A stretch of 6,725 bases of DNA from Deltaproteobacteria bacterium (GTDB taxonomy: Bacteria; JAUYMQ01): assembly GCA_030698575.1 (NCBI GenBank), contig JAUYMQ010000482.1:1-6725 (forward strand). Direction: 5' to 3'. This document shows, piece after piece, positions 2,782-6,725 of this stretch (its first letter is position 1; each line of letters starts with the position of its first letter). The position numbers and the translations under genes are program-made. The notes under the pieces were generated by a model. The model ran no database searches. It was not told where the DNA came from and saw only the letters and a program-made list of their open reading frames with translations.

Positions 2782-3339
2782 ATGAAAGCCACCGATATCC
2801 GCAAAGGGCACGTGCTGCTGATCGACGGTCAGCCGTGCCGCGTCATGGACTTCACGCACCGCACGCCGGGCAACCTGCGCGCCTTCGTGCAGGTCCGGTT
2901 CCGGAGCCTCGTTTCCGGGAACACGTTCGATCAGCGTCTCGCCGCCACCGACTTCCTGAACGAGGCTCGGCTCGATACCAAGGAGATGCAGGTTCTGTAT
3001 CAGGATCAGGGCGGCGTGCACGTGATGGATCAGGCGAACTACGAGCAGTACACCCTCGACGAAAGGGCCGTGGGCGATGATGCGCCGTGGCTGCAGCCGG
3101 AGATGGTCGTCCAGGTGGAATGGCTCGAAGGGCGCCCGATCGCGATCGAGCTGCCGTCGGCGATCGAGCTGAAGGTCGTGGATACGTCGCCCGTCATGAA
3201 GACGGCGACGAAGAACGCCAGCACCAAGCCCGCCAAGCTGTCCAACGGCGTGACGGTGCAGGTGCCAGATTTTATCAGCCCGGGCGAGAAGGTCCGCGTC
3301 GATCCGCGCTCGGGACAGTATCTGGAGCGGGCGAAGTAA
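2782..3339 (+). CDS. efp: Elongation factor P, with non-canonical loop tip
   Basis: EF-P binds beside the peptidyl-tRNA on the ribosome and relieves stalling at consecutive prolines. The 185-residue length and three-domain layout fit the family. Domain I is at about 1-62 (MKATDIRKG..., LIDGQPCRVMDF). Domain II begins near TKEMQVLYQD (66-75). Domain III contains GRPIAIELPSAIELKVVDTSP (117-137) and ends VPDFISPGEKVRVDPRSGQY (161-180). The loop normally reading PGKG, whose Lys (E. coli Lys34) is lysylated, here reads TPGNLRAF. Asn31 replaces the modified residue, Leu32 follows, and the nearest basic residue is Arg33. Start choice: upstream in-frame TTG (2752) and ATG (2767) exist, but MKATDIRKG at 2782 matches the usual EF-P N-terminus. 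None of the three has a clear Shine-Dalgarno. The C-terminal 21 codons overlap the 3' end of tag on the other strand. It could be a distinct EF-P-like paralogue. Confidence 0.94.
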   Translation: MKATDIRKGHVLLIDGQPCRVMDFTHRTPGNLRAFVQVRFRSLVSGNTFDQRLAATDFLNEARLDTKEMQVLYQDQGGVHVMDQANYEQYTLDERAVGDDAPWLQPEMVVQVEWLEGRPIAIELPSAIELKVVDTSPVMKTATKNASTKPAKLSNGVTVQVPDFISPGEKVRVDPRSGQYLERAK

Positions 3340-3901
3340 GGGTGGCGTAGCGGTGGCACGTCACCAGATGGTCGTTGACCATCCCGGTGGCCTGCATGAA
3401 GGCGTAGCAGATCGTCGGTCCCACAAAGCGAAAGCCCCGTTCCACCAGCGCTTTGCTCATGGCGACCGATTCGTTGGTCTCCGCGGGCACCCCGCGCATC
3501 GTCTTCCAGGCGTTGTGCTTCGGTTTCCCGCCCACGAATTGCCAGAGGAACGACGCGAACGACTCGCCCGCGCCCGTCATCGCGAGGAACGCCCGCGCGT
3601 TGGTGACGGCGGCCGCCACCTTCTGGCGGTTGCGGACGATGTCGGGATTCTTGAGGATCCTGGCGATGCGCCGCGCGTCGTAGCGCGCCATGCGCTCGGG
3701 GGCGAAGCCGTCGAAGGCGTCGAGGAAGCCGTCGCGCTTACGGAGGATGATCGCCCACGACAGACCGGCTTGAAAGCCGTCCAGCACCAGTTTGCCGAAC
3801 AGCTGCCGGTCGTCGTGGACGGGAACGCCCCACTCGCGGTCGTGGTAGGCGATCATCAGATCGCTGGAGGTCGCCCACCCGCATCGGTTTTCGGAAGTCA
3901 G
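3275..3901 (-). CDS. tag: DNA-3-methyladenine glycosylase I, probable CTG start
   Basis: Tag excises 3-methyladenine from alkylated DNA, the first step of base-excision repair. The zinc ligands known from E. coli Tag (Cys4, His17, His175, Cys179) have counterparts at Cys7 (RCGW), His20 (AYHD), His178 and Cys182 (NDHLVTC). The base-pocket residues Tyr16 and Trp46 correspond to Tyr19 and Trp49 (QAGLSW). The position of catalytic-pocket Glu38 is Asp41 (LDGFQAGLSW). The HhH-like core (NPDIVRNRQKVAAAVTNA) and the GPTICYAFMQATGMVNDH block are intact. No ATG, GTG or TTG lies in frame just upstream of RCGW. The first plausible initiator is CTG at 3901-3899, sharing CTGA with the lipoprotein's TGA stop, which gives 208 residues and implies translational coupling. 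Starting at the downstream ATG (Met16) would delete a zinc ligand. The last 21 residues form a polar tail encoded entirely antisense to efp. Confidence 0.92.
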   Translation of the reverse strand: MTSENRCGWATSSDLMIAYHDREWGVPVHDDRQLFGKLVLDGFQAGLSWAIILRKRDGFLDAFDGFAPERMARYDARRIARILKNPDIVRNRQKVAAAVTNARAFLAMTGAGESFASFLWQFVGGKPKHNAWKTMRGVPAETNESVAMSKALVERGFRFVGPTICYAFMQATGMVNDHLVTCHRYATLTSPAPDTVPSADRRGPSRPG

Positions 3902-4755
3902 TCTGCCGTGCCGTTTGTTTGCCCTTCCAGAACGATGATGAGGAAGCGCGAGTTCCGCCAGAAATCCTCGGGCGAGGCGATCTGGAGGCTCGGCACATCC
4001 CTGACCCGGTTGCCTTTGCGCGGGGTCGCGAGCGCATCGAGGTTCTGCCGCGACGCGATGCGATACTCCGCCGTCGAGTCGGGCAGCGGGATCTCGATCG
4101 TGGCCCGCTTGTCGACCGCCGTGAACAAGGAGGGGTCGAGGTTCCGCGCCGGCGCGAGGGTGCGGCCGGTGCGCCACAGGATGAACAAGACCCGGCTGCC
4201 GCCCTCTTCCACGAGCAGGCCCCGCTGTTTGAGCTCGTCCCGCGTACCGATGACGTAGTACACGATGCTCAGCGAGTCGCTCATCGCCAGGTTCTCGGCG
4301 GTCAGCGTCTCGACGCGCTGGGTGAGCCAGTCGATCGTGCTCTTCTGCTCCGCGATGACGGTCTGGAGGTTCGTGACGGTGGAGTCGAGCATGCCGCGCA
4401 GGCTGTCCGACAGGCTGGTGAGGTTGCGGATCCGCGCGCGGCTCTGGCCCAGCTGCTGCTCGGTTTGGCGGACGCGGGTCACGACGTAGCGCAGCTTGGC
4501 CAGCATCGTATCGCGCTGCGCGGTCAGCGGCGACTCGGACGACACCGCCAGCCGGTTGCCGCGCACCTGCACCTTGGCGATCTCGACGCTGACGTCGCTC
4601 AGCAGCCGCGAGCTGAGCGCGATCTCCTGCATCAGACTGTCTTTCTGCGCGTTGGCCAGCTCCAGCTCGGCCAGCTTGCGCTCGGTCTCCGCCGACGTTC
4701 CGCACGCACCGGACACGGCCACGAGCAGCGCGCCGGCGATGAGCTTCAGATTCAT
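3898..4755 (-). CDS. Coiled-coil lipoprotein of unknown function
   Basis: This 285-residue exported protein starts at the ATG at 4755, chosen because it places a short basic start and hydrophobic stretch (MNLKLIAGALLVAVSGAC) at the N-terminus; a longer in-frame start at 4836 would bury the signal. Cys18 is the likely lipidated residue, although the lipobox has Ser rather than Leu at -3. Only a weak G-rich ribosome binding site precedes it. Residues about 22-66 and 78-165 are heptad-like, rich in Glu, Gln, Ser and Leu, and predict a long coiled coil. The C-terminal domain (166-278) starts YYVIGTRDELKQRGLL and ends PEDFWRNSRFLIIVLEG. From memory, this layout resembles coiled-coil lipoproteins annotated in Bacteroidota, some labelled adhesin-like, but I cannot verify the match. 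It is the first gene of a two-gene unit with tag, overlapping it by 4 bases. A role in surface or cell-envelope structure is an inference. Confidence 0.87.
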   Translation of the reverse strand: MNLKLIAGALLVAVSGACGTSAETERKLAELELANAQKDSLMQEIALSSRLLSDVSVEIAKVQVRGNRLAVSSESPLTAQRDTMLAKLRYVVTRVRQTEQQLGQSRARIRNLTSLSDSLRGMLDSTVTNLQTVIAEQKSTIDWLTQRVETLTAENLAMSDSLSIVYYVIGTRDELKQRGLLVEEGGSRVLFILWRTGRTLAPARNLDPSLFTAVDKRATIEIPLPDSTAEYRIASRQNLDALATPRKGNRVRDVPSLQIASPEDFWRNSRFLIIVLEGQTNGTAD

Positions 4756-4804
4756 AGTGCCCCCAAACTCCCGGTTCGAAATAGGTCGCGTTAGCTTTGC
4801 CGCG
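4756..4804. promoter_or_regulatory. Short divergent intergenic region, lipoprotein-tag unit versus DUF72 gene
   Basis: Only 49 bp separate two divergent start codons, so promoters in both directions must overlap or extend into the genes. I see no confident -10/-35 pair and no clear Shine-Dalgarno before the DUF72 ATG at 4805. That transcript could have a very short leader. This entry rests on gene orientation only. Confidence 0.3.
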
Positions 4805-5542
4805 ATGCCATCAGCTCCCAGGCTGCTCACCGGCACCTCCGGCTACAACTTCCCCGAGTGGAAAGGCAGCTTCTACCCGCCCACACTCTCGAGCGCCCAA
4901 TGGCTCGAGTACTACGCCCGACAATTGGGCACGGTGGAGATCAACTACACTTTCTACCGCATGCCCAGCGCCAAAACGATCGCCGGATGGAATGCGGCGA
5001 CCCCGGAGGACTTCATCTTTGTCGTGAAAGCGCCACAACGTATTACCCACTTCGCGCGCCTTCGGAACATCGATGAGCCGCTCCGCCTCTTCCTCGAGAC
5101 GGTGGGCAAGCTCCATGCCAAGCTCGGGCCCGTCCTCTTTCAGCTGCCGCCCAACTTCAAGAAAGATGTCGAGGCGCTCGGCGATTTGCTGACGCAGTTT
5201 CCGTCGCATGTCCGCTGCGCGTGTGAGTTTCGTCACACGTCGTGGTGGTCAGAGGACGTCTACGAGATGCTCCGGACCGCCAACGCCGCGCTATGCGTCG
5301 CCGATACAGAAGAAGGCACGACGCCCTTCGAGGTCACCGCCGACTTCGGCTATGTGCGGCTACGCGATGAGGGCTATACCGAGGACGAGCTGAAGGGGTG
5401 GGTCGAAAAACTGAAGGCGCCCGCCTGGGCGGACGCCTTCGTGTTCTTCAAGCATGAGGAAAAAGGAATCGGGCCGAAGCTCGCCGCCCAGTTTCAGGCC
5501 ATCTGGGGCATGCGCGGCGGGGCGCCGGAGCCGCCGCCCTGA
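4805..5542 (+). CDS. DUF72 (YecE-like) family protein
   Basis: This 245-residue protein belongs to the DUF72 family, a TIM-barrel-like fold without an agreed biochemical function. Family signatures appear in order: TGTSGYNFPEWKGSFYP (9-25), TVEINYTFYRMP (43-54), KAPQRITHFARL (75-86), GPVLFQLPPNF (108-118), CEFRHTSWW (140-148), FGYVRLRDEGY (181-191) and AFVFFKHEEKG (211-221). The last block replaces the YFNND-type sequence of many members, as I recall for one common subgroup. The start at 4805 is chosen because the family begins just before the GTSG motif; the frame stays open upstream but there lies antisense to the lipoprotein gene. No signal peptide is visible, so it is probably cytoplasmic. 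The last 16 codons and stop overlap the opposing membrane-protein gene by 49 bp. The nearby Ku and Tag genes hint at a nucleic-acid role, but that is only contextual. Confidence 0.93.
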   Translation: MPSAPRLLTGTSGYNFPEWKGSFYPPTLSSAQWLEYYARQLGTVEINYTFYRMPSAKTIAGWNAATPEDFIFVVKAPQRITHFARLRNIDEPLRLFLETVGKLHAKLGPVLFQLPPNFKKDVEALGDLLTQFPSHVRCACEFRHTSWWSEDVYEMLRTANAALCVADTEEGTTPFEVTADFGYVRLRDEGYTEDELKGWVEKLKAPAWADAFVFFKHEEKGIGPKLAAQFQAIWGMRGGAPEPPP

Positions 5543-5923: not shown

Positions 5924-6725
5924 TAGCGGCCTCCCGCCACTTTTCGGCGCCTGGCCGGCTTCGGCTCGTCCGCTTTGAGGCTGGCTTTGAGCGCCTGCAT
6001 CAGATCGATGATCTGGGTCTTGGGCGCCTCTTCGGGCTCCTCGGTGATCTCCTGGCCCTCGACCTTGCGCTCGATCTGCTCCAGCATCCGTTTGCGGACG
6101 TTGTCCTCGTACGCCTCCGGTTTGAATTCGTCGGAGGATGCCTGGTCGATCACCCTGATGGCCATGTCGAGCTCGGCCTTCTTGACCTCGGTCTTGGGAA
6201 TCGGGACGTCCCCGATGCTCCGCAACTCGTCGGCGTAGCGGAGCTGCTCCATCGCGAGGCCCCCCTCCAACGGCCGCACCAGAATCAGATACTGCTTGCC
6301 GCGCGCGGCGTACTGGCCGAGCGCCACGCGATTCGTCTTTTTGAGCGCCTCGGCGAGCAGTTTGTAGGCGCGCTCGCCGCCCTTGTCGGGGGCGAGGAAG
6401 TACGTCTTCTCGAGGTAGATGCGGTCCACCTGCTCGGCCGGCAGGAACTCGTTGATGTCGATCGCGCCGGTCGCCCGCTCCTCGAGCGCCTTCAGCTCTT
6501 CGGGAGTGAAGAGGACGTACTGCCCCTTCTTGAACTCGTAACCCTTGACCATCTCGTCGCGCTCGACCTTCTCGCCGTCCTTGGAGCAGACGTATTGCTG
6601 CTTGAGGCGGGCGCCGTCCTGTTTGTGCAGCCAGTTGAACGAAATGCTGGCCTTCGATTCGCCCGCGGTATAGAGCTGCACGGGCACGGAGACAAGGCCA
6701 AACGAGACCGTGGCGGATCCGATGG
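5923..6725 (-). CDS. ku: Ku protein, bacterial non-homologous end joining (N-terminal few residues beyond window)
   Basis: Bacterial Ku forms a homodimeric ring on double-strand DNA ends and recruits LigD for end joining. The visible 266 residues start IGSATVSFGLVSVPVQLYTA, which in this family follows directly after a short start such as M-R-A. Only about three codons are therefore missing, and the internal GTG at 6687 is not the real start. The core includes FNWLHKQDGARLKQQYVC (29-46), DEMVKGYEFKKGQYV (56-70), IDINEFLPAEQVDRIYLEKTYFLAP (88-112), the bridge-region motif ALGQYAARGKQYLILVRP (134-151) and LRYADELR (161-168). A single Cys46 is present where some Ku proteins have CxxC. The C-terminus (about 230-266) is the acidic-then-basic tail typical of bacterial Ku, ending in Arg/Lys-rich residues implicated in LigD contact and DNA binding. 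It is followed by a stem-loop and the DUF5684-like gene. No ligD lies in this window. Confidence 0.95.
   Translation of the reverse strand, partial: IGSATVSFGLVSVPVQLYTAGESKASISFNWLHKQDGARLKQQYVCSKDGEKVERDEMVKGYEFKKGQYVLFTPEELKALEERATGAIDINEFLPAEQVDRIYLEKTYFLAPDKGGERAYKLLAEALKKTNRVALGQYAARGKQYLILVRPLEGGLAMEQLRYADELRSIGDVPIPKTEVKKAELDMAIRVIDQASSDEFKPEAYEDNVRKRMLEQIERKVEGQEITEEPEEAPKTQIIDLMQALKASLKADEPKPARRRKVAGGR

Follow-up and report, generated by a model that had tools for sequence, protein, structure and literature searches.

Elongation factor P (EF-P) is taught as requiring a long, modified and positively charged loop tip, and both lysylation and hypusination require a Lys at this position. 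Known systems close to the protein reported here include the Lys-type EF-Ps, such as that of Escherichia coli, in which the tip is beta-lysylated by EpmA and EpmB; shared features include the three domains, a seven-residue loop, and a Pro-Gly pair preceding the tip. Arg-type EF-Ps, rhamnosylated by EarP, share the EF-P fold and the presence of an Arg in the loop. A third comparison is with EfpL (YeiP), an EF-P homologue whose R33 tip is active without modification and which provides a precedent for an unmodified tip (PMC11611912). EF-Ps with Asn at the tip have also been recorded, accounting in 2010 for 2.2% of EF-Ps in organisms lacking yjeA and yjeK (PMC2821294) and in 2019 for 2.23% of 1166 EF-Ps, always with Pro at the -2 position (PMC6544042), and they are mentioned again in 2024 (PMC11611912); what we say of these three papers refers to their accessible portions, in which no mechanism for Asn tips is given. 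We found no paper on the EF-P loops of Gemmatimonadota in the literature outside subscription journals.

The efp gene of the window

The window, by which we mean the whole 6,725-nucleotide stretch of DNA analysed, encodes an EF-P with the following features.

2782..3339, + strand: efp, elongation factor P, 185 aa plus stop, with three EF-P domains (open reading frame with ATG start, TIGR00038, Pfam, AlphaFold2)
2863..2883, + strand: seven-residue beta3-beta4 loop of domain I, T28-P-G-N-L-R-A34 (gap-free alignment to E. coli KPGKGQA; flanking predicted strands)
2872..2874, + strand: Asn31 codon AAC, equivalent to E. coli Lys34 (sequence; alignment; only AAC or AAT in 100 distinct relatives)
2875..2880, + strand: Leu32-Arg33, the residues that switch with the tip (332-protein tally; independent-pairs test on the tree)

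With 205.9 bits, the predicted product exceeds the 185.8-bit threshold of TIGR00038, the NCBIfam equivalog model for EF-P; it matches all three of the Pfam domains EFP_N, EFP and Elong-fact-P_C, and is about 35% identical to EF-Ps of solved structure. Its AlphaFold2 model has a mean pLDDT of 90.9 with EF-Ps as the best PDB matches, and predicted strands at residues 17-27 and 35-42 flank loop residues 28-34. The loop reads T28 P29 G30 N31 L32 R33 A34 F35, and a HMMER alignment with E. coli EF-P (6enj) passes through it without gaps, placing Asn31 on Lys34, Leu32 on Gly35, and Arg33 on Gln36. An earlier note made from the sequence alone had described an Asn at the tip and Leu32 in the place of a Gly, and both descriptions are borne out by the translation and by this alignment; it had also judged the protein unlikely to be decayed, in agreement with the domain matches and with the codon usage described below. 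The motif it named is likewise present, but the interval given for it, 2860-2883, starts three bases early and encodes RTPGNLRA, with TPGNLRAF lying at 2863-2886.

With Asn at the position of residue 34 and Pro at that of residue 32 (T-P-G-N), the window EF-P falls within the set of Asn-tip proteins surveyed previously (PMC2821294, PMC6544042), and is thus a member of a known, understudied class. It differs from the Lys-type in having N-L-R where the latter has K-G-Q, and from the Arg-type in that its Arg lies two positions after an Asn tip and that Pro29 occupies the -2 position, where Pro is nearly absent in Arg-type proteins (PMC6544042). The EfpL loop is two residues longer, has an Arg tip, and belongs to a protein that co-occurs with EF-P, whereas the window loop is of canonical length and its protein is usually the sole copy; the seven-residue loop, the Asn tip, and a score with the EfpL models of 121.7 bits against a cut-off of 264 rule out its assignment as an EfpL.

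Several other genes lie in the window. The last ~60 bases of efp are overlapped by the C-terminal end of a convergent methyladenine glycosylase open reading frame (3278-3339, - strand), and a Ku-domain protein of bacterial end joining (PF02735) is encoded at 5926-6687 on the - strand. Two further - strand reading frames, at 1906-2616 and 3901-4836, have no Pfam match, and in the nearest relatives the former has a counterpart at the corresponding position next to efp.

Distribution of Asn tips in Gemmatimonadota and Acidobacteriota

The source genome is a soil Gemmatimonadota metagenome-assembled genome (MAG), and the closest relatives of the window EF-P are encoded in soil Gemmatimonadetes MAGs (92-94% identity). 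PGNLRA is present in all of the Gemmatimonadota loci of the relative scan that cover the loop, together with one locus of Granulicella (Acidobacteriota), and more distant matches in the same scan have PGKG or other tips. Among 27 Gemmatimonadota genomes reached through EF-P loci, 24 have one EFP_N gene. An even sample of 170 genomes of the phylum, from a search centred on the relative Roseisolibacter, contains EF-P in 162, with exactly one copy (of either Lys or Asn type) in 153 and more than one in nine; of the 130 EF-P loci that we read within it, 78 have PGKG and 52 have PGNLRA. PGNLRA with its flanking residues is also present in 35 of 149 Acidobacteriota genomes, where further Asn tips include PGNLRG, PGNWRG, PGNKRG and PGNLPA, and tips of the types PGNLRA/G, PGNWRG and PGNKRG are common in that phylum. 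The window EF-P is ordinary for its clade. The earlier note suggested that similar PGNLRAF tips exist in other phyla and that they may be a clade trait, both of which hold; PGNLR tips are indeed common and Asn tips had been described before, this prior description not extending to their mechanism in the portions of the three papers noted above.

In 100 distinct Gemmatimonadota proteins with PGNLRA the Asn codon is AAC in 79 and AAT in 21, and the Leu codon is CTG in 60, CTC in 30, CTT in seven, TTG in two and CTA in one. Because the residues are fixed while the codons drift synonymously, we conclude that the motif is under purifying selection and is not decaying; taken with the 94% identical orthologues in independent MAGs, this leaves virtually no probability that the gene is degenerate or that the Asn is a sequencing error.

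Six Gemmatimonadota genomes encode one Lys-type and one Asn-type EF-P, the locus pairs being L207/L272 (G217), L211/L274 (G205), L167/L255 (G305), L208/L233 (G332), L137/L144 (G016) and L136/L143 (G017). In G217 the two genes lie on separate contigs, one 611 kb and the other 348 kb long. These genomes are natural cases in which both types of EF-P can be compared within one cell.

The source genome (G000) itself contains a second EF-P gene, on contig C291 (L001, 615-1178, - strand), with the tip TQGNKRG, again an Asn tip but one in which a Gln replaces the Pro at -2. The contig is 2.7 kb long with a GC content of 63% (66% in the window), the best matches of its EF-P in the 149 Acidobacteriota genomes are 60-62% identical, and in the tree it groups with Acidobacteriota GNWRG/GNKRG proteins. 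A check for a second efp, as the earlier note had proposed, thus does find one, but an EFP_N search of the 27 Gemmatimonadota genomes revealed no copy of this type in near relatives; the C291 gene is probably either a contaminant, the bin having an estimated contamination of 4.6%, or was acquired from Acidobacteriota by transfer.

Coupled changes in the EF-P loop

A tally of 332 distinct EF-Ps reveals that the residue at the tip and those following it vary together. The residue after Asn34 is Leu, Trp, Lys or Arg in 180 of 180 proteins and Gly in none, and that after Lys34 is Gly in 131 of 132; Arg is present at the +2 position (36) in 170 of the 180 Asn-tip proteins and in 4 of the 132 with Lys tips. 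One substitution at the third codon position is enough to convert Lys to Asn, yet there is no Asn-Gly intermediate among the 332 proteins. On an EF-P tree constructed without the loop columns, about 14 switches between Lys and Asn are needed, although this is a quick tree and the exact count is uncertain. Residue 35 changes along with the tip in eight of eight well-supported independent pairs (sign test, p 0.008), and Arg36 trends in the same direction in about five of five informative pairs, which is not significant. A single clade of all Asn-tip EF-Ps is rejected (AU test, p 1.3e-5). With support of 98-99, the Gemmatimonadota Asn-type proteins nest within a group of Acidobacteriota PGNLRA proteins and are separate from the main Lys-type of their own phylum, and because of this grouping we suggest that there has been either transfer between the two phyla or an old paralogy. 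The new point, at the level of sequence comparison, is that the loop switches as a block, the tip together with residues 35-36; the accessible portions of PMC2821294, PMC6544042 and PMC11611912 make no mention of this coupling.

Some loops depart from these patterns. Acidobacteriota EF-Ps L357, L358, L361 and L389-L393 have HQTPGNLPAR loops with an Asn tip and Pro rather than Arg at +2, and such PGNLPA-bearing members of the phylum show that not every EF-P of the Asn-tip class has an Arg at +2. PGRWKA or PGRYKS loops in Acidobacteriota EF-Ps L321, L359, L367, L370 and L386 have an Arg tip despite Pro at -2, a combination reported to be very rare (PMC6544042). AGGGKLGG and SGVAQMAG loops occur in very divergent second EF-P-like proteins of Acidobacteriota (L380, L383).

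Modification, paralogy and the proposed action of the Asn-tip loop

The Lys34 that is the substrate of EpmA and EpmB, and that is 5-aminopentanolylated in YmfI-type EF-Ps, is Asn31 in the window protein. YmfI is one of many similar short-chain dehydrogenases. No match to EpmA (TIGR00462) exceeds the cut-off in any of the 170 Gemmatimonadota genomes of the phylum sample, which are relatives of the source genome; the weaker matches listed sit in open frames of at least 468 aa, the size to be expected for lysyl-tRNA synthetase. The lysine-aminomutase family that includes EpmB (TIGR00238) has no match in the source genome, which is 91.6% complete, and 9 of 14 controls were positive; the EarP search gave no match in the source genome and none in any control genome either. 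Examination of 55 efp loci identified no flanking gene common to all relatives that might encode a linked modifier. If efp and the composite reverse-frame cluster belonging to it are set aside, no flanking cluster is present in more than 15 of the 55 loci, and the synteny of the window is kept only in the 10 nearest relatives.

The main rival to an unmodified loop is a post-translational modification of Asn31 or Arg33 by an enzyme outside of the EpmA, EarP, YmfI and DHS (deoxyhypusine synthase) families. Most of the Lys- and Arg-tip EF-Ps studied so far depend on modification of the tip, the single change K34N renders E. coli EF-P inactive (PMC6544042), and the strict conservation of the loop as a block could reflect an enzyme recognition motif; the neighbourhoods, however, hold no conserved gene, NLRA does not contain an N-glycosylation sequon, and the frequent switches to and from Lys would require the enzyme to have been gained or lost repeatedly, and we regard such a modification as unlikely. 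DHS itself was suggested in PMC6544042 as a modifier in bacteria with Lys or Asn tips, and the source genome does encode a full homologue, as do 155 of the 170 Gemmatimonadota genomes above the cut-off. DHS, however, transfers an aminobutyl group onto the amine of a lysine, which Asn does not have, and homologues accompany both types of tip, including many Lys-tip genomes, with two Asn-tip (G214, G278) and many Lys-tip genomes among those lacking one. The bacterial homologues characterised so far, SpeY and CdmS, make polyamines, with homospermidine or caldomycin as products (PMC10407285, PMC10981699). On the grounds of its chemistry and of its presence with both tip types we reject DHS as the modifier, according it only the slightest probability.

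A further alternative, also raised in the earlier note, is that the window gene encodes a specialised EfpL-like paralogue with an altered preference for stalling motifs that acts beside a canonical EF-P. The second gene on C291 and the six genomes with both a Lys-type and an Asn-type copy are what would be expected of such an arrangement, but the window-type copy stands alone in nearly all close relatives and the protein does not have the EfpL loop extension. The C291 copy, moreover, is on a short contig in a partly contaminated bin, has Acidobacteriota affinities and is without a near-relative counterpart. We consider a paralogue of this kind quite improbable, and the usual sole-copy status of the window-type EF-P rules it out as the main reading.

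The reading that we favour, by a modest balance, is that the window gene encodes the main, functional EF-P of its host, a member of the Asn-tip class that would act through a modification-free Asn-bulky-Arg loop. Because E. coli K34N is inactive (PMC6544042), Asn alone cannot replace Lys; we infer that this inactivity and the never-seen Asn34-Gly35 combination fit a block with compensating residues at 35-36. In this class, Asn-bulky-Arg (NLR, NWR or NKR) stands as a block in place of the modified Lys34-Gly35 pair, leaving unchanged the Pro-Gly hairpin and the seven-residue length of the loop. In the proposed mechanism the Asn would make short polar contacts, the bulky residue may stiffen the loop or contribute to its packing, and the Arg two positions on from the tip would supply a positive charge contacting the tRNA or rRNA backbone. 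The unmodified loop would then position the CCA end of the P-site tRNA, acting on stalled ribosomes as do other EF-Ps.

More broadly, we tentatively propose that the Asn-bulky-Arg loop may represent a third chemical answer to polyproline stalling, one that needs no modification. Lineages would have entered and left it by repeated block switches, and in many Gemmatimonadota and Acidobacteriota it would have taken the place of the modified-lysine loop in their sole EF-P. The EF-P on which many bacteria of these two soil phyla depend has a tip that is short and neutral. The change of the loop as a block makes the working mode of the Asn tip testable, and loops of this type could help to explain why the modification enzymes are missing from many phyla in surveys.
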